Positions 43,712 to 63,038 of a DNA stretch of 64,000 bases are shown one piece after another. How positions within the stretch are numbered: position 1 is the first letter of the stretch; every line of letters begins with the position of its first letter. The translations under genes and the position numbers were made by a program. The DNA comes from Spirochaetae bacterium HGW-Spirochaetae-1 (GTDB lineage: Bacteria; Spirochaetota; UBA4802; UBA5550): contig PGXY01000002.1 in NCBI GenBank assembly GCA_002839375.1, positions 250,392 to 314,391 on the forward strand, in the 5' to 3' direction. The notes under the pieces were generated by a model. That model saw only the letters and a list, made by a program, of their open reading frames with translations. It did no database searches and was not told where the DNA came from.

Positions 43712-44494
43712 ATGAAGCATCTCATCATAACCGCAATCAGCATCTTACTCTCAGCCGCCATTCCGGCGAACAGCAATAAAGGCCCTTTTCTCCGGGACTA
43801 TATGCGCGACAACAACATCACGGGCACCGTGGTGATCGAATCGTTGCAGACCAATAAAAAATTTGTATACGATGAAAAGAGGGCCGCGGTGAGGTTTACG
43901 CCGGCTTCGACTTTCAAGATTGTCAATACGCTTATCGCCCTGCAGGAAAAGGCTGTGAATGATGAAAATGAAATCATTAAATGGGACGGTCGCGTTTCGG
44001 AATTTGCCGACTGGAACAGGGATCAAAGTATTAAAAGCGCCTTTGGTGTGAGCTGCGTGTGGTTTTACCAGGAGCTGGCCAGGAGGGTAGGCAATGGAGC
44101 CTATATGTCGTATCTGAAAAGGATGAACTATGGTAATCAGAAAACAGGAGAGCATATCGATACATTCTGGCTTGACGGTAGTCTGCAGATTTCTGCCCTT
44201 GAACAGATTTCGGTTTTGAAAAATATCTATAATGAGAAATACGGCTTCGATAAAAAAAATTATGAAATATTGAAAGAGGTTATGATCGTTGACCGGACCG
44301 GCGACTATATCGTACGGGCCAAGACCGGCACGGCAATGCGTGTGAAGCCCGTGACAGGCTGGTACGTGGGCTACATTGAAACGAAAGGCGATGTCTGGTT
44401 TTTCGCCTGCAATATCGATATGGAAAGGCCGGAACAGTCGAAGCTGAGAAAGGAAACGGTGTACAGGGCATTGAGGGAAGCAGGGTTACTTTGA
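43712..44494 (+). CDS. Class D (OXA-like) serine beta-lactamase
   Basis: 260 residues with a signal peptide (about 1-20), so periplasmic. All class D motifs are present: S66-T-F-K69 (PASTFKIVN), S114-C-V116 (SxV), Y140-G-N142 and K204-T-G206, plus W217 in WYVGY. K69 is the residue that is normally carboxylated. Class D enzymes hydrolyse penicillins and sometimes other beta-lactams. Sequence alone cannot give its spectrum. The SxV motif carries Cys in the middle position. It is followed, with 53 bases between, by a cupin gene. Confidence 0.93.
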   Translation: MKHLIITAISILLSAAIPANSNKGPFLRDYMRDNNITGTVVIESLQTNKKFVYDEKRAAVRFTPASTFKIVNTLIALQEKAVNDENEIIKWDGRVSEFADWNRDQSIKSAFGVSCVWFYQELARRVGNGAYMSYLKRMNYGNQKTGEHIDTFWLDGSLQISALEQISVLKNIYNEKYGFDKKNYEILKEVMIVDRTGDYIVRAKTGTAMRVKPVTGWYVGYIETKGDVWFFACNIDMERPEQSKLRKETVYRALREAGLL

Positions 44495-54465: not shown

Positions 54466-54572
54466 ATATAGTTCCCGGATATCTTCATCATGGCTATTCA
54501 GTTCATTATATTCAAAAATGAATGAAAGTCAATACTTTATGTGTAAGGGCGGCTCTTTTTCGTGAAAATGAA

Positions 54573-54593
54573 TACTTGACAAATACACAAGTA
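54573..54593. promoter_or_regulatory. Inverted repeat over a TTGACA element before the binding-protein gene
   Basis: TACTTG (54573-54578), nine bases, then CAAGTA (54588-54593). The repeat overlaps a perfect TTGACA (54576-54581); the matching -10 is weak. The site is about 60-80 bases before the binding-protein start and could bind a metal- or substrate-sensing repressor. Confidence 0.4.
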
Positions 54594-54650
54594 CATGTCA
54601 TTAGACTTCAGATAAAAAGAATGAAAATGATTCGGGATGGATATGCGGAT

Positions 54651-55748
54651 ATGAGATTCAGGAATTTAATTATGCTGTTTCTTGCGGGGGGGATGATATT
54701 GCATCCCGTTTTCGGCGGACATGACAAAGGGACTCTGCGGGCCATGGAAAATACCAGGACGATTATCGATTGTGCCAACCGAAAAGTCCAGGTTCCCCGC
54801 CGGGTGAAACGCATAGCCTGCCTCTATGCCTTCAGCGGCCACGTCGTGACCATGCTGGGCAGGGGAACCGATATCGTTGCCGTTGTAGGCGGGCTCAAGC
54901 GTGACGTTATGCTGACATATCTCTGTCCATCCATTGCCGACGCCGTTGTTCCGCGATACAATGGAGCACTGAACGTGGAGGAACTGTTGAAGTCCCGCCC
55001 CGACGTGGTTTTTCTAAAGGAGGATATGGCCGGAAAAGAATCGGAGACGTCAGGTCTTGACCGGTTCCACATACCCTGGGTGGTCATATCCTTCAACTCA
55101 ATGGCGGAGCAGCAGAAAGCCGTTGCCATAATCGGAGAGGTCATCGGAGAGACGCGTGCCGCTGCAGATTATAATTCCTACTACAGGGAAACGATCGACC
55201 GCGTCGGTACTATCGTGAAAAGCATACCAGGGGACCGGAAACTCTCTCTTTACCACTCGACCCTGGAACCGCTGAAAACCGACGGACCGCGTTCCCTGGC
55301 CGCTGAATGGACAAGAACAGCAGGAGTTATCAATGTATCTGCGGGAGCTGAACTGATAACGTCCGGTGAGGATTACTATGCAACCATTGAGCAGGTTCTC
55401 CTGTGGAATCCCCGGGTAATTCTGGTCAATGAAGAAGGCATTGATGACTATATGAAGAATAACTCCCTCTGGTCCCATATGGATGCGGTAAAGCAGGGGC
55501 GGATATATAAAATGCCCACGGGCATATCGCGGTGGGGGCATCCCGGGTCGGTGGAAACGCCACTGGCCCTTCTCTGGACGGTAAAAACACTGTATCCTGA
55601 ATATGCCGTAAGTATCAATCTCAGGACCGAGACGAAAAGATTTTATAATACCTTTTTCAATTATGAACTCTCCGACACAATGACCGACAGCATCCTCAGC
55701 GGAAAAGGGATGAGAACGGCAAAAAGTAAAAGGAATAAGAAGAAATGA
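54651..55748 (+). CDS. Periplasmic substrate-binding protein of a FecB/BtuF-type ABC importer
   Basis: 365 residues from ATG 54651; longer in-frame starts exist (for example 54522, 54621), but this one begins the signal peptide RFRNLIMLFLAGGMILHPVFG. The mature part has the class III binding-protein layout: first lobe (VQVPRRVKRIACLYAFSGHVV), a long linker helix (SYYRETIDRVGTIVKSI) and second lobe (VLLWNPRVILVNEEG). It would deliver a metal-chelate, corrinoid or similar ligand to the FecCD-type permease at 62-63 kb. Its last four bases (ATGA) overlap the start of the next gene. Confidence 0.88.
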   Translation: MRFRNLIMLFLAGGMILHPVFGGHDKGTLRAMENTRTIIDCANRKVQVPRRVKRIACLYAFSGHVVTMLGRGTDIVAVVGGLKRDVMLTYLCPSIADAVVPRYNGALNVEELLKSRPDVVFLKEDMAGKESETSGLDRFHIPWVVISFNSMAEQQKAVAIIGEVIGETRAAADYNSYYRETIDRVGTIVKSIPGDRKLSLYHSTLEPLKTDGPRSLAAEWTRTAGVINVSAGAELITSGEDYYATIEQVLLWNPRVILVNEEGIDDYMKNNSLWSHMDAVKQGRIYKMPTGISRWGHPGSVETPLALLWTVKTLYPEYAVSINLRTETKRFYNTFFNYELSDTMTDSILSGKGMRTAKSKRNKKK

Positions 55749-56491
55749 AAATTTACATGGCAATAGACGACACCGATATCCTGGGAAGCCGGGGCACTGG
55801 ACATCTTGCTGAAGACATCAGAAGAGATATTGTCTCGATATTTTCCGGGACATGCGAGAATATATCGCGCCACCAGCTTTTCGTATGCGACGATATCCCC
55901 TATACATCGCATAACAGTTCCATGTGTTTTGTCGCCGATATCGGTGATGATGCATTTGAGGGAATAGTGAAACATACGATTAATATGCTGGAGACATGCA
56001 GCGCCGACGGATCTGATCCTGGTTTCTGCATCTTTAACCTTGAAAAACTTGATGAAGAAGGCGCCGGAAGACTCATGGATTTCGGTCATCGTGCCAAGCG
56101 GACCGTTCTCACCAAGGAAGAGGCTTACGGCCTGGCCGCCGAACTGGGCATTCATCTTTCAGAGCACGGAGGAACCGGACAGGGAATAATCGGCGCCCTG
56201 GCCGGAACAGGCCTCAGGCTCGAAGGCAATGACGGCCGGTTCCGGGGCTGGATATTTGAAAATGCCGACACGGAGATGACTGTCCGGGAATGCCTGGAGC
56301 AGCTGCCGGTTCGGGAAGTTGTCGACCTGGCCGGAGCGGTTATTAATGGATCGGATTTAGTGCGGCTGAACGGCAAGGTAAAGACCGTGCCCAGGAGAGG
56401 TCGCCAGGTTCTGCTGGTGAAAAAAAAGAAAGACAACGGGCAATCGTTCTGGGTGAATCTTAACCGGGATGAAATCAAGGGCCTTGACTAA
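55745..56491 (+). CDS. TiaS-like IDDTD-motif protein coupled to a binding protein
   Basis: 248 residues starting MKIYMAIDDTD (IDDTD at 7-11). That motif and the glycine-rich stretch HGGTGQGIIGALAGTG (141-156) resemble the N-terminal catalytic part of TiaS, the archaeal tRNA-Ile2 agmatinylcytidine synthetase. The zinc ribbon and OB fold of TiaS (about 420 residues) are missing. It overlaps the binding-protein gene by four bases (ATGA), so it is translationally coupled to a transport gene, which would be odd for a tRNA enzyme. It may be an ATP-using enzyme that modifies or releases the imported ligand. Function unknown. Confidence 0.78.
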   Translation: MKIYMAIDDTDILGSRGTGHLAEDIRRDIVSIFSGTCENISRHQLFVCDDIPYTSHNSSMCFVADIGDDAFEGIVKHTINMLETCSADGSDPGFCIFNLEKLDEEGAGRLMDFGHRAKRTVLTKEEAYGLAAELGIHLSEHGGTGQGIIGALAGTGLRLEGNDGRFRGWIFENADTEMTVRECLEQLPVREVVDLAGAVINGSDLVRLNGKVKTVPRRGRQVLLVKKKKDNGQSFWVNLNRDEIKGLD

Positions 56492-56497
56492 GGGTGA

Positions 56498-58882
56498 TTA
56501 AAACTTTGCTGAACATCCTCCATAAAACATGCGTCCCGGACCCGGGATAAAGGGGTCGGCCTCGTAGTCGTCGAGCACGTTTTTACACATGACATAAACC
56601 TCGTAATAAATGAGAAAAGACTGGCTCAGCCTGATATTGAGCATGACCGGGTCATGCAGCCGTACCGCCTCGAAGTATTCCGTTGAAAAGGGTGTTTGAA
56701 CCGGTCCGGGCTCGGGCCGTTCCTTCATGCAGTACACATACTGATTCACGGTGCTGTAGCCCCAGATGTTCAGGCCCGTGCCCCCTTTGAACTTCAACCG
56801 CAGATCCGCCGAAATCTGGTGTGATGGTGTAAATTCTATTATCTCACCTTTGTTGATTTTCTCCTCTTCAGAATTATCCCTGTTCCGCGTATAAAGGTAT
56901 GTGTAGGAGCAGACCAGGGTCATATCCATAATATCGAAAATTCCTTCCCTGGTGTAGGTTATAATGGATTCCAGTCCCTGCGAATCGACCCTGCCGATAT
57001 TCACGGGCGGATCAATGCCGCCGGAAATTTTTTCGATGCGGTCCTTAACCACGCTGACAAAATAGTCGGCGCGCAGGGAAAGGGCGCTATCGAAGAAAAA
57101 GAGTTCGAAGCCAGTGTTGCCGTTGTATGATCGTTCAGGTTTCAGCCGGTTGTCCCGCTTGTCATCGACGATTTTTGAATATTCACTGAGATCGGGAAAG
57201 CGTGTTTTTATGGAACCGGCGGCACGAAGGATAAGCCGTTCTTTCATCGGTGTGAATATAAGACCCGCCACGGGATTGATGGAGTCCTTGGTTCCCAGAA
57301 GTTTCGAGTCAGCAGCAACGATGTAGGCATCTTCAAACTGGTACAGGGCCTCGCGGTTCTTGAAACTGTGCAGTATTTGCATATCATACGAGACGCCCAG
57401 GGAAATGTTCAGCCGGTCCTTATAGTTTATTTCATCTTCGACGGCTATTGTAAAATAAGATACATCGAGCCGCTGAACCGGGTAGGGATCAGTGCCGAAG
57501 AGCGTGGCCGCGATAGCCGGGGAAACTGTGGCAGAAATGGCCTGTTCGTTTTCCTGGTACAGGGAATAACGCCCCAGCAGGGCAAAGTTAAGGGTGTTCC
57601 ATTGGGCTATTTTCCATGAGGGGTACAGGTTTGCGCCTGCAGTGAGATATTCTTTTATGGTGTAAAAGGGCTCAAGGACCGTGTCGGCCAGGACCGTGTC
57701 GCCGGGCCAGGTATGGTCCGTGGTGGCGTACTTTTCCTGTTTGGCCGTCATGTATGTGTAATAGGCGTTTCCCTTCAGTTTACATTTATTATAATCCAGT
57801 GTGAAATAAGGCGACACACGCACGTTGTGGATGGCCGGCCACACGAAGGAACGGTTTCGGAACGCAGCGCTTTTTATATCCCGCGGATCAGAAGAAACAT
57901 CAAAAATCGGATCTTCCCATTCTGTGTTTTTTGCTTTAAAATTACTGTATGCATTGAGCTGGTAGCTCGACGTATTGGCTGTTTTGAAATAGTATTCGGC
58001 AGTGATCCCTGCCTCGCTTTTATCATCGATGCGGTACCCTATCTTCGTGGCCAGGGAATACTGGGTGGAGTCATTGTGATTCCAGATACCCGTGTCGTTT
58101 ATATATCCCTCCACGGCAGGAAGATTGAGATCTTCGAAGTTTAAACCGTAAAGGTCGTAGCGCACCAGGCGGTCGAACCATTCACGGCGTTTTTTACTGT
58201 CCAATTTTCCCGATATTTCATATCCGCCCGAGTGCTGTACCGAGGCGTTGATCCAGTAGTAGAAATTCCCCAGAGGCGCTCCATGGGCCGCGTTAATGAG
58301 CCAGTTGTTATACTGGCCGTATTCGGCGCCGATCTCGTAATAGGGCGCGTCGGGTTTTTTCGTGATGATGTTGATGACACCCACGGCCCCGTAGGTTCCC
58401 AACAGGGCTGACGTGGCGCCCCTGTTCACGATGATTTGTTCAACATTATTCAGGGGAATATTCGAGATGTCTATGTCCGTGGAAAAAACGTCATTGATAG
58501 GGACCCCGTCGATGAGGATTGCCACCTTGTTCTGGTCAAAGCCGCGGAAGCGGGCCCGCACATAGCCCTTTTTATGCACGCCCACCTGGATACCCGGCAC
58601 AGACTTCAGGGAGTCGTCCAGGGTCTTATCGGAATGCTCTTCGATCTCCTCGGACGATATAACCGTGGTGTTGGTCGCTTTTTCTATCTGGGGGATGGCA
58701 CGCCCGTATATGACGATTTCACCGGCAGAATAGATGTGTTTTGCCTGGTTCTCTTTTTTTTCCTTTGGGGGTTCCTCCGGAGATTTCTTGTCGGTGTTTT
58801 CTCCATGAAGCGGAGAGAAGCAGAAGACGAGCGATAAAATGAGGACCGGGAAATGGACAAATAGATTAGTTTTGATTTTCAT
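56498..58882 (-). CDS. TonB-dependent outer-membrane receptor
   Basis: 794 residues. A signal peptide (about 1-27) is followed by a proline/lysine/glutamate-rich linker, a plug domain (about 55-175, SSEEIEEHSDKTLDDSLK, RFRGFDQNKVAILIDGVP) and a beta-barrel ending in a C-terminal phenylalanine (GGCSAKF), as BAM recognition requires. It imports a scarce large ligand using TonB energy. It faces the TiaS-like gene with 6 bases between stops and follows two lipoprotein genes on its own strand, so the lipoproteins probably help at the cell surface. Confidence 0.92.
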   Translation of the reverse strand: MKIKTNLFVHFPVLILSLVFCFSPLHGENTDKKSPEEPPKEKKENQAKHIYSAGEIVIYGRAIPQIEKATNTTVISSEEIEEHSDKTLDDSLKSVPGIQVGVHKKGYVRARFRGFDQNKVAILIDGVPINDVFSTDIDISNIPLNNVEQIIVNRGATSALLGTYGAVGVINIITKKPDAPYYEIGAEYGQYNNWLINAAHGAPLGNFYYWINASVQHSGGYEISGKLDSKKRREWFDRLVRYDLYGLNFEDLNLPAVEGYINDTGIWNHNDSTQYSLATKIGYRIDDKSEAGITAEYYFKTANTSSYQLNAYSNFKAKNTEWEDPIFDVSSDPRDIKSAAFRNRSFVWPAIHNVRVSPYFTLDYNKCKLKGNAYYTYMTAKQEKYATTDHTWPGDTVLADTVLEPFYTIKEYLTAGANLYPSWKIAQWNTLNFALLGRYSLYQENEQAISATVSPAIAATLFGTDPYPVQRLDVSYFTIAVEDEINYKDRLNISLGVSYDMQILHSFKNREALYQFEDAYIVAADSKLLGTKDSINPVAGLIFTPMKERLILRAAGSIKTRFPDLSEYSKIVDDKRDNRLKPERSYNGNTGFELFFFDSALSLRADYFVSVVKDRIEKISGGIDPPVNIGRVDSQGLESIITYTREGIFDIMDMTLVCSYTYLYTRNRDNSEEEKINKGEIIEFTPSHQISADLRLKFKGGTGLNIWGYSTVNQYVYCMKERPEPGPVQTPFSTEYFEAVRLHDPVMLNIRLSQSFLIYYEVYVMCKNVLDDYEADPFIPGPGRMFYGGCSAKF

Positions 58883-58914: not shown

Positions 58915-59706
58915 TTATGGGCAATAGTCCGCGACACTCTGTATTGGCAGCTTGTCCCCGGCTGACATGGTCGCGTCATCTGATCTTAAAAAAATCCTGC
59001 CCATGCCGCCGCTTCCTGTATTGGGTTTTCCCAGGACCCAGTTTGCATCTATAGTGAGGGTTATGCCCTGGGAGTCTTCATTGACTGTGATGGTGTCGGC
59101 AAGATCCGCGAAGGGAGTTCCAATGTCTTCATTGGCGGGATCATTGTCATAGATGGAATAGCGGTCGTAACGGTTCAAAAGGTTTTCTCTGTTGCCGCCG
59201 TAATTATAATCGTAAAAGGCCACCACATAATAGTCGCCATGTGCGATATTTTTAATGGTAATTGTACTGTTGTTCGATGAAGAAGTTCCCTTGTACAATA
59301 CCGGTTGGATGTTCGAGATATAATCACCATTTATATCAGCGGTAAGTGTCCCGAAAAGATACACAATGTTTATTTTATCGCCCAGGTCATCAGGTCCGAT
59401 CATTTCATCGGCCAGGTCCTCGAGCCAGGCATCATCCTCGCCGCATTGCCAGTCGCCGATATGGTCGGGGGGCACATCCCAGCCCACACCGCCGGTTTCG
59501 GCATACATCCAAGTGCCGTCTTTTGCTCCATAAGATCCGGTATTCGCCAGTGTTTGTCCTACGCGGGGATATCCCCACATATCAGAGTCGGTCTGTACCG
59601 TTATGGATATCCTGCCCTGGTAAGTATCTCCTGTGTTATCGCAGGAGATATATATTGCGCTTATAAGACTTAAAAATATGCACGGCAGTAGAATGAAGTT
59701 TTTCAT
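58915..59706 (-). CDS. Lipoprotein with one copy of a novel GDYYVxAFYDY domain
   Basis: 263 residues with a lipoprotein signal (ISC lipobox, lipidated C22). The mature part is beta-rich and acidic. Residues 157-188 (GDYYVVAFYDYNYGGNRENL and a following DRYSIYDND) closely match two stretches of the neighbouring lipoprotein; the unit then ends with LTIDANWVLGK. No known family is recognised. It lies 32 bases before the TonB receptor gene, so it may be a surface partner that captures the receptor's ligand. Confidence 0.8.
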   Translation of the reverse strand: MKNFILLPCIFLSLISAIYISCDNTGDTYQGRISITVQTDSDMWGYPRVGQTLANTGSYGAKDGTWMYAETGGVGWDVPPDHIGDWQCGEDDAWLEDLADEMIGPDDLGDKINIVYLFGTLTADINGDYISNIQPVLYKGTSSSNNSTITIKNIAHGDYYVVAFYDYNYGGNRENLLNRYDRYSIYDNDPANEDIGTPFADLADTITVNEDSQGITLTIDANWVLGKPNTGSGGMGRIFLRSDDATMSAGDKLPIQSVADYCP

Positions 59707-59802
59707 TATCAGAATTCTCTCATGGCATACTTAATCGCATATTACCATCTCCAGGGGCCTCCTCATTGACAGGGAGACCCCGGGTGGATGATGGAATATC
59801 CC

Positions 59803-60747
59803 TTAGGGAGTTACCGCCCATGTAGCTCCGTCACCGATAGTATAAATAATTGTATCATCTTCGCTGATAGTTGCAGTTGAAGCAACGGTTGAGCCAGTCG
59901 TCCCGTTTCTGATATCATGATAAATCTCATACAGGTCTCCTGTATTGATTATATTGCTACCACCTGTAGCAGAATTCAGCAGGCATACTACATAAAAATT
60001 ACCGGAGTAATTGGTGAGAATGTTGTCAATAACGATGGCCCCATTATTGCCGACAATATTTCCCTGGTAAAGAATATTATTTCTCGGTGAATTGGATTCA
60101 AGCTGACGGTAAACAAAAGCATAGGCATTGTATGCGCCGCTACTTGAATAATCAACATTTATTGTCATTGTGTTTCCGGTAAGTGATGTAATGAAAGTTT
60201 TTGAACTTCCCATTTCCCAGTTACGCTGAATGGTGAGGGATATGGCATTGGGACCTTCTTCTGTGATTGTCAGTTTCTGTGTGTCGGAGATCAGGGGGGA
60301 ACCGGTACCGCCGTCATAGAATGCATAGCGGTCAGCCTTGGTAATCAGGTTGGAATCATCTCCACCCGTACGGTAATCATAGAAGGCAATAACATAATAG
60401 TCACCCGGTTCTATGCCAGTAATATCCGTTGCCGTATTATTATCATTGTTTATGGCTGTTTCGCTGTAAAGATAATCATTCATATCGTTGGATACATCAC
60501 CATCGACTGTAGTGGGAAGTACATTTGGGTCCGGCATATCTGCGCAGGAATAGAGCTGCACATAATTGATTTTCTGACCGGCATATCCTGTTTGCGTATC
60601 ATAGTCATCACCATAATTGCCCTGATAATTAACCGTCACTGAAAGAGTTGCCCCTGGATCATCACTGCTGCCACCTTCACAGGCCGAAAAAGTAAAAAGT
60701 GCAGCGATCATTATCGCCGTCAGAATTAAAAGACTTCTTTTTTTCAT
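59803..60747 (-). CDS. Lipoprotein with two copies of the GDYYVxAFYDY domain
   Basis: 314 residues with lipobox FSAC (C23). Two related units occur: about 35-185 (core GDYYVIAFYDYRTGGDDSNL at 115-134, then DRYAFYDGG) and about 185-314 (core GNFYVVCLLNSATGGSNIIN at 249-268, then DLYEIYHD). Each ends with a tryptophan segment (QRNWEMG; GATWAVTP). The shared pattern with the next gene shows a duplicated extracellular-type beta domain. Function unknown; a ligand-binding or adhesion role at the outer membrane is inferred from the TonB context. Confidence 0.8.
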   Translation of the reverse strand: MKKRSLLILTAIMIAALFTFSACEGGSSDDPGATLSVTVNYQGNYGDDYDTQTGYAGQKINYVQLYSCADMPDPNVLPTTVDGDVSNDMNDYLYSETAINNDNNTATDITGIEPGDYYVIAFYDYRTGGDDSNLITKADRYAFYDGGTGSPLISDTQKLTITEEGPNAISLTIQRNWEMGSSKTFITSLTGNTMTINVDYSSSGAYNAYAFVYRQLESNSPRNNILYQGNIVGNNGAIVIDNILTNYSGNFYVVCLLNSATGGSNIINTGDLYEIYHDIRNGTTGSTVASTATISEDDTIIYTIGDGATWAVTP

Positions 60748-61181: not shown

Positions 61182-62006
61182 TTATTCCCCGTCATTGTCA
61201 TCGGCAGCCGTGGCCAGGGCGATGATGGCACCGGCCTTTTTGCTTGCCTGCCGATAGGAGAGAATCTTTGATTCTACCCTGAATATTTTCATCATGGTCT
61301 CTTCGGTGAGGACGGAACGGGGACTGCCCAGGGCGAAGATTTTTTCTTCGTTCATGATTGCCATGGTCGTGGGAATGCCGTTATTCTCGAAATAGAAGGC
61401 ATGGTTCGGAGAATGGGTCGCGATGATAAAGGAAAGGCCCCGTACTCTCGCCAGGGAGGCGATTTTTTCCAGGAGCATTATCTCGTGCCGGAAGTCCAGG
61501 TGCGAAGCCGGCTCATCCATGATGATAATGGGCGACCGCTGGGCCAGGGCCCGCGCCAGCATAACCAGCTGTACCTCGCCGCCGCTCAGCTGTGTGTAAA
61601 GCCTGTCCTGCAGCGACTCGATTCCCACGTCCTTCAGGGCCTCCTGCGCGAGCAGGTGATCTTCACGGGACGGGCCGCTGAAAGGGGTGATATAGGCCGT
61701 TCTTCCCATGAGAACCACTTCGCGGACCAGGTAGGGGAAGGTGCGCTCGTGTATCTGCGGCACATAGGCCATGCGGCGCGCCAGTTCATGGGGACGGTAA
61801 TCCGCTATAGTTTTACCGTAGACGCGTATTTCACCCTCTTCGAGGGAATGAATTCCCAGGATGCAGTCGAGAAGGGTTGTCTTGCCGCAGCCATTGGGAC
61901 CGAAGAGTATGACTATTTCGCCTTCGCGCAGTTTCAGGTTGATGCCGGAAAAGATACTGCGGCTGCCGTATGAAAAATGTCCATTGCTTACTTCAAGGAC
62001 CGTCAT
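61182..62006 (-). CDS. ABC transporter ATPase of FecE/BtuD type
   Basis: 274 residues. Walker A GPNGCGKT (36-43), Q-loop VPQIHERTF, signature LSGGE (140-144) and Walker B IIIMDEP (D164, E165), then a His-switch region (ATHSPNHAF). It energises uptake of siderophore-, heme- or corrinoid-like ligands. The ATG is three bases after the permease stop. The binding protein for this pair is probably the one at 54.6 kb, about 6 kb away on the other strand. Confidence 0.92.
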   Translation of the reverse strand: MTVLEVSNGHFSYGSRSIFSGINLKLREGEIVILFGPNGCGKTTLLDCILGIHSLEEGEIRVYGKTIADYRPHELARRMAYVPQIHERTFPYLVREVVLMGRTAYITPFSGPSREDHLLAQEALKDVGIESLQDRLYTQLSGGEVQLVMLARALAQRSPIIIMDEPASHLDFRHEIMLLEKIASLARVRGLSFIIATHSPNHAFYFENNGIPTTMAIMNEEKIFALGSPRSVLTEETMMKIFRVESKILSYRQASKKAGAIIALATAADDNDGE

Positions 62007-62009
62007 GGT

Positions 62010-63038
62010 CTACCATCCTCCGCCGCGCGTTCTCCGCAGGAGATAGATGAAGAAGGGACCCCCGATCAGTGATGTCAATATTCCCAGGGGAATCTCGCCG
62101 CCCGATATATTGCGGGCGATATTGTCGATGATCACCATGAAGCAGGCACCCAGGGAAATACTCACGGGCATGAGAATACGGTTGTCGTTGCCGGCAATCA
62201 TTCTTCCCATGTGGGGGATCACCAGTCCAACCCATCCTATGATGCCGCTGATGCAGACTGCACCGGCCGTGGCGATAGTTGTGAAGACAATTATTGCTGC
62301 GCGGTTGAGGTTCACGTTGATTCCCAGGGTTTTGGCCTCCCGTTCCCCCATGGAGAGAACGTTGATGCGCCAGCGAATGAGCATGAGGCCCATGATACCG
62401 CCCAGCATGGGAATCGACGCCGCCAGTACGTCATGACCCTGAATCGAGGCCAGGCTCCCCATGAGCCAGAATACGATGGAGGGAAGATCTTCATAGGGGT
62501 CGGCCAGAAACTTGAGGAATGAAATCATGGCGGAAAATATCGATGATATTATCACTCCGCCCAGGACCAGCATGATGGTCGGTGCGCTGTTGTAAATTTT
62601 CCCCACCAGGTAGCTTAAGATGACGGCCAAGATTCCAAAGATAAAGGCGCAGATATATATGGCGGCCGTGCTTTTGAACATGATGATGGCCAGGGCTGCG
62701 CCGAAACCGGCCCCGGAACTGACGCCCAGCATACCGGAGCTCACCAGGGGATTGCGGAAGAGCCCCTGGAGTGCTGTGCCGCTGGCAGCCAGGCTTGCGC
62801 CTACCAGGGCGCCCAGGAAGGCCCGGGGGAGCCGTATCTCCCAGATGATGGAACTCTGGATGGAAGCTGCCACGTCGGGTCCACGGGAGATTATGCTCCA
62901 GATAAGGGGAAAAACTTCAGTGTAATGTATGGGGTATCTTCCCAGGAAAAGGGAGAGCACTATGCAGGCAAGAGGAGCTGCAACAAGAAGAACGGTGACA
63001 CCGGCCTTCTTGAGAATTTTCTTTTTCCTGGCGGTCAT
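62010..63038 (-). CDS. FecCD/BtuC-type ABC transporter permease
   Basis: 342 residues with about ten predicted membrane helices. Family hallmarks are RLPRAFLGALVGASLAASG (in part), PLVSSGMLGVSSGAGFGA, and the coupling helix region REAKTLGI, followed by GIIGWVGLVIPHMGR. It works as a homodimer with the ATPase downstream. It is not directly linked to a binding protein on its strand. Ligand specificity cannot be read from the permease. Confidence 0.92.
   Translation of the reverse strand: MTARKKKILKKAGVTVLLVAAPLACIVLSLFLGRYPIHYTEVFPLIWSIISRGPDVAASIQSSIIWEIRLPRAFLGALVGASLAASGTALQGLFRNPLVSSGMLGVSSGAGFGAALAIIMFKSTAAIYICAFIFGILAVILSYLVGKIYNSAPTIMLVLGGVIISSIFSAMISFLKFLADPYEDLPSIVFWLMGSLASIQGHDVLAASIPMLGGIMGLMLIRWRINVLSMGEREAKTLGINVNLNRAAIIVFTTIATAGAVCISGIIGWVGLVIPHMGRMIAGNDNRILMPVSISLGACFMVIIDNIARNISGGEIPLGILTSLIGGPFFIYLLRRTRGGGW

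Follow-up and report, generated by a model that had tools for sequence, protein, structure and literature searches.

The question raised by this locus is what a protein resembling the catalytic domain of archaeal TiaS does in a bacterium, where its gene follows directly on that of a substrate-binding protein (SBP). The window, by which we mean the whole stretch of 64,000 nt analysed here, carries an ORF with the IDDTD and GIIGALAGTG motifs that the first-pass annotation had described. We call its product TCKD-like, after the Thr18-Cyt2 kinase domain (TCKD) of TiaS. The annotation had the protein fused to transport by a four-base overlap; the 4-bp overlap (ATGA) is real, but there is no fusion and the two genes are separate. 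It also gave the length as little more than half of that of TiaS, and the ratio to the 420 residues of A. fulgidus TiaS is indeed 59%. The gene and its conserved elements are these:

55745..56491 (+): TCKD-like protein gene, 248 aa, ATG start (ORF call, profile search, AlphaFold model, structure search)
55763..55777 (+): IDDTD motif, residues 7-11 (alignment to A. fulgidus TiaS; nearly invariant across 15 members)
55796..55798 (+): Thr18 codon, inside the family-wide GTG triplet (aligned with TiaS Thr18)
55910..55918 (+): H56-N57-S58, family-specific, N57 common to TiaS (invariant in 15/15 members)
56009..56023 (+): GSDPG, residues 89-93, family-specific, P92 and G93 common to TiaS (alignment of 15)
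56168..56200 (+): GGTGQGIIGAL, residues 142-152, its G-x-IGAL core common to TiaS (alignment)
56222..56488 (+): C-terminal beta-rich domain, about residues 160-248 (no TiaS, Pfam or PDB match)

Residues D8, D9, T10, D11 and Thr18 align without gaps to the same-numbered residues of A. fulgidus TiaS in a single-sequence phmmer search. Thr18 of TiaS is the residue from which the domain takes its name. Among the 15 family members, IDDTD and G17-T18-G19 are nearly invariant, and R42, Q44, T54, H56-N57-S58, GSDPG (89-93), G114, A117, G142-G143, G147, IGAL (149-152) and G164 are invariant in 15/15. The second motif of the window protein (residues 142-156) reads GGTGQGIIGALAGTG.

The suspected relation to TiaS holds in profile searches. 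The NCBIfam TiaS profile (NF040849) matches residues 1-160 (E=1e-9, 37 bits), and single-sequence phmmer against the TiaS structures gives E=4e-4. The family profile, searched against the PDB, finds the TiaS of P. furiosus (3u02, E=4e-12) and that of A. fulgidus (E=6e-8). These values argue against a chance likeness, as do the two motifs, which vary little or not at all among the 15 homologues from several phyla.

It holds also in the predicted structure. The AlphaFold model (pLDDT 89.6, pTM 0.81) has the TCKD fold, and nine TiaS chains are all that Foldseek finds for it in the PDB below E=1e-3. In the alignments the ATP- and metal-binding aspartates are kept, as is Thr18. The compact TiaS structure alignments span about 160 residues at 2.5–3.9 A, and the full-length model matches well over the first ~160 residues only. 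The TCKD fold of the window protein is thus almost beyond doubt, and the homology to the TiaS kinase domain, as judged from sequence and model, is certain. The same TiaS feature, a TCKD domain with the Asp motif and Thr18, is found in the family at large.

Beyond this domain the family departs from TiaS. The annotation had noted that zinc ribbon and OB fold are lacking, and neither of them nor the FLD has a Pfam match in any of the 15 members. In place of the other TiaS domains, the C-terminal ~88 residues are confidently predicted as a beta-rich domain, for which, when modelled alone, a PDB structure search gave no match better than E=0.24. Against the 600-bit cut-off of the NCBIfam TiaS equivalog the window protein scores 37, while four archaeal controls also stay below this cut-off in a six-frame search. 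In the tree, all 15 members stand apart from the two TiaS rows with 100/100 support, these being the only TiaS rows and the branches being long.

The annotation had also turned to tilS, and TilS is found over its cut-off in the window's genome. Since tRNA-Ile2 is thereby already served, a tRNA-Ile2 role is unlikely for the TCKD-like protein, and we hold with high confidence that it is not the tRNA-Ile2 enzyme.

Methanogenesis marker protein 11 (TIGR03280) is a further relative. Its C-terminal half is matched by 15/15 members, some of them better than TiaS is, and the best member reaches E=2.5e-15 against marker 11 and 1.1e-9 against TiaS. The window protein scores 32 bits, where the cut-off is 255.8, and matches positions 134-282 of 292 only. 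With its TCKD-like half, marker 11 may itself function in a kinase-type reaction.

On sequence grounds, the 15 members from bacteria and haloarchaea form a single family that is clearly distinct from TiaS and scores under the marker 11 cut-off. Two come from Thermodesulfobacteriota MAGs (L001, L002) and ten from genomes of the window's phylum, nine of these within its order; plasmid records add two Natribaculum megaplasmids (haloarchaea) and one Pimelobacter, no other plasmids being found. The Pimelobacter record, a circle of 3.8 kb, is possibly a fragment from an assembly. Since haloarchaea require TiaS for their own tRNA, the Natribaculum plasmid copies are likely something other than TiaS.

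The gene is rare, occurring in 10/393 genomes of the window's phylum, and a search of viral contigs found no relatives. The genome search was centred on that phylum, so the spread is a lower bound. Searches of the literature for bacterial TiaS relatives, COG1571 and marker 11 returned nothing relevant. As far as these sources show, the family is so far uncharacterised and places a variant of a known fold in new surroundings.

The setting in the window is an importer, made up of the following genes:

54522..55748 (+): Peripla_BP_2 SBP (E=5e-19), 4-bp overlap with the TCKD-like gene start
56498..58882 (-): TonB-dependent receptor; in the window's order its family is linked to molybdate-type regulators
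58915..59706 (-): lipoprotein, 263 aa, of a kind that also accompanies this TonB family at other loci
59803..60747 (-): lipoprotein, 314 aa, of the same kind as the 263-aa lipoprotein at 58915..59706
61182..62006 (-): ATPase of a FecCD/BtuCD-type importer
62010..63038 (-): permease of a FecCD/BtuCD-type importer

The SBP, the TCKD-like gene, the receptor and the importer together occupy about 54.5–63.0 kb of the window. A Peripla_BP_2 SBP (its likely start, judged from the signal peptide, is at 54651), a FecCD permease and a cognate ATPase make this a FecCD/BtuCD-type importer. When the SBP profile is searched against the PDB, HI_1472 (3psa, 3psh) is the second-best solved relative (E=8e-33), the better one being 4ovk, whose ligand is unassigned. 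HI_1472 is MolA, the molybdate-binding protein of H. influenzae.

The lipoproteins at 58915-60747 (-) resemble others beside the same TonB family, at L019:12576-13094, L083:7587-8237, L085:4706-5894 and L089:2714-4458. Where read, these small lipoproteins contain YYVxxFYDY-like repeats; they are possibly the surface partner of the receptor and have no Pfam match over cut-off. Elsewhere in the window, a class D (OXA-type) beta-lactamase gene lies at 43712-44494 (+), with 282 bits for an NCBIfam cut-off of 250, on a 575-kb contig.

The coupling to transport is no accident of the window, as it recurs in other genomes. The FecCD-type set is shared by the window, L016 and L002, with SBPs 45–57%, permeases 61–68% and ATPases 46–53% identical, and is found in more distant form in Natribaculum. 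In G189 (L016), TonB, permease, ATPase, SBP and TCKD-like genes form one operon. Within the order, no genome but the window's own and G189 (57%) has a close relative of the window SBP; the remaining SBPs reach 31% at most.

An ECF set occurs at L017-L020, consisting of fused ATPases, a CbiQ-type protein, a 171-aa protein and an S component. The S component is found in 4/46 genomes of the order; 4/4 are TCKD-like carriers and have it on the same contig, 3–4 kb away (p=8e-4 for the association, with related genomes treated as independent). The Pimelobacter record also has a distant S-like gene beside its TCKD-like gene (28% identity, E=5e-7). At L018:2664-2745 (-), a NiCo riboswitch over the gathering score sits just upstream of the gene for a cation-transporting ATPase and is not ECF-linked.

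The TonB receptors of the FecCD-type and ECF-type loci are orthologues (44–61%). Hence two unrelated inner-membrane importers go with orthologous receptors and one enzyme, which suggests a common cargo. In the stretches read at L014, L015 and L033 there is no importer, and L032 is a short contig. The same TonB family is also seen with FecCD importers and a radical SAM protein at L090:11491-18922, L091:7847-13202 and L092:4970-9978, L090 and L091 having an FmdE protein (PF02663) too; these stretches are without a TCKD-like gene.

Around several members lie genes of molybdenum and tungsten (Mo/W) metabolism. A molybdenum-storage-protein (MoSto) homologue adjoins the TCKD-like gene at L014 and L015; the L014 copy matches the MoSto beta subunit at E=4e-64 as against 7e-10 for UMP kinase, and the L015 copy is close by sequence. 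At L014 and L032 the gene is next to an HTH_17-PBP_like regulator with a sensor domain that resembles a MoeA-PBP protein in its tail. A TupA-like tungstate-binding protein is near the gene at L019 (by profile) and at L017 and L020 (by sequence), and L019 and L020 have the HTH-PBP regulator as well. L001 has a ModE domain, a MocA-like NTP transferase with a TrsS cassette (a Mo-cofactor set) and two Oxidored_molyb-like proteins.

In the order, 4/9 carriers have the HTH-PBP regulator at most 10 kb from the TCKD-like gene (0.05 expected), and 16/29 genomes have it at most 10 kb from a receptor of the window's TonB family (0.2 expected), the statistics ignoring shared ancestry in both cases. A single-sequence search of solved structures found no relative of this regulator. 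The SUOX-like proteins beside the TonB receptors match Pfam Oxidored_molyb in one copy, and a PDB sequence search with them found none. The window module has no Mo/W gene within it. Co-occurrence with AOR enzymes was rejected as Mo/W evidence; they are present in 40/46 genomes of the order, so that their presence in carriers is uninformative and the AOR-like gene close to L002 and L014 counts for little.

A recurrent operon of TonB, tandem SUOX-like, short CcsA and short ResB genes was observed at L020:4858-8493, L081, L085, L086, L089 and L090. It is often near the HTH-PBP regulator, includes a lipoprotein of the tetrapyrrole-methylase fold at L020 and L085, and looks as though it belongs, as a periplasmic component, to this Mo/W theme.

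We propose that the window encodes an ATP-dependent enzyme of the TCKD fold, served by an importer route (TonB, then FecCD or ECF), for Mo/W metabolism, and give this reading as a whole a probability of about 0.5. Its parts are individually more probable. That the protein acts on an imported molecule is quite likely; a role in Mo/W metabolism is equally so, and phosphotransfer is somewhat less so, though favoured. From homology and gene context together we infer ATP use, phosphotransfer, a small-molecule substrate and a direct Mo/W link. The core of the annotation's idea stands in this reading; the Mo/W link is the chief addition to it, beside the ECF alternative, the TonB receptor and the relation to marker 11.

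With the Asp motif and Thr18 kept, ATP-dependent phosphotransfer is the simplest reading of the chemistry. Because the tRNA-binding parts are missing and the importer context recurs, the acceptor would most simply be the imported molecule or its product. The Mo/W neighbourhood suggests for this cargo a Mo/W chelate, a chelator or a pterin-type cofactor piece.

In the proposed scheme, the cargo would enter through the TonB receptor and then either the FecCD-type ABC importer with its SBP or the ECF importer. The cytosolic protein, a TCKD joined to a new C-terminal beta domain, would bind Mg-ATP by D8, D9 and D11, and phosphate would pass via or beside Thr18 to the imported molecule. The molecule may thereby be trapped or activated, or metal release or insertion prepared. 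The most specific version is tentative and we lean against it in full detail: a new family of bacteria and haloarchaea that would use the TiaS kinase domain to phosphorylate an imported Mo/W chelator or pterin-type cofactor, on an undescribed import and salvage route of TonB with FecCD or a dedicated ECF importer.

The cargo could also be a B12-type compound or a haem-like ring, which the TCKD-like enzyme would phosphorylate or amidate in corrinoid or tetrapyrrole salvage. The best NCBIfam matches of the permease are BtuC, permease and ATPase are as close to B12 and haem importers as to any, and B12 is one of the few substrates of both FecCD-type and ECF importers. Further, the S component weakly matches PF09819 ABC_cobalt, with no match in NCBIfam or PDB, and L020 and related operons have the tetrapyrrole-methylase-fold lipoprotein and CcsA/ResB proteins. 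However, eight loci gave no cobalamin riboswitch at the gathering threshold and the window gave none even up to E=1, no riboswitch of any kind was found at the module, and beside the family Mo/W genes are recognised instead of corrin biosynthesis genes. We consider corrinoid salvage unlikely. An ATP-dependent activation or storage of molybdate or tungstate with no organic substrate is more doubtful still. MoSto uses ATP, and its homologue is next door at L014/L015 with TupA and ModE near other members, but TonB and ECF routes normally take organic or chelated cargo and the TiaS relation indicates phosphorylation of an organic oxygen.

Two further readings concern the protein itself. It could bind ATP with no chemistry and gate the importer or a regulator in the manner of PII proteins, which regulate transporters and are among the next Foldseek matches after TiaS (E about 4e-3). 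This match is weak and partial, a ferredoxin-like fold resemblance, and Thr18, the Asp motif and the many invariant polar residues exceed what nucleotide sensing needs, which leaves such a sensor slightly more doubtful than the oxyanion handler. Given its homology to the TiaS catalytic domain, the protein could alternatively be a descendant of TiaS that modifies RNA or tRNA in bacteria. The absent FLD, OB and zinc-ribbon domains, the TilS of the genome, the recurrent importer link and the score far under the TiaS cut-off all argue against it, and we regard it as very improbable.

To our knowledge, experimental work on the TCKD fold is limited to TiaS, where it acts as a kinase on tRNA and protein. 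The transporter-linked family suggests that the fold serves ATP-dependent reactions more generally, and it would offer a way into marker 11, where the domain also occurs. Should the Mo/W reading hold, it would point to organic Mo/W uptake or cofactor salvage by a TonB receptor with two interchangeable inner-membrane importers, a route of which we found no description in the searchable papers.

Among known systems, the closest on the importer side is HI1470-1472 (MolBC-A), the FecCD-type molybdate/tungstate importer of H. influenzae (PMC4031551). Both have a FecCD-type permease and ATPase, and the window SBP matches HI_1472; the window set differs by the better match to 4ovk and by its TonB receptor and TCKD-like gene. 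The ECF set shares fused ATPases and a CbiQ-type T component with the ECF vitamin and metal importers (CbiQO type; YkoE/PF09819-like S), whereas its S component lacks NCBIfam and PDB relatives and is confined to carriers in the window's order.

On the enzyme side, marker 11 has the same TCKD-like domain in its positions 134-282, whereas its N-terminal ~130 positions are absent from the TCKD-like family and the window protein is below its cut-off. With TiaS (NF040849; PF22641 TCKD; PDB 3amt, 3amu, 4rvz, 3u02), the family shares the TCKD fold over about 160 residues and, in the window protein, D8, D9, T10, D11, T18, N57, P92, G93 and the IGALA stretch. It differs from TiaS in being without FLD, OB and zinc ribbon, in having its own C-terminal domain and a separate place in the tree, and in its importer context in bacteria that have TilS.
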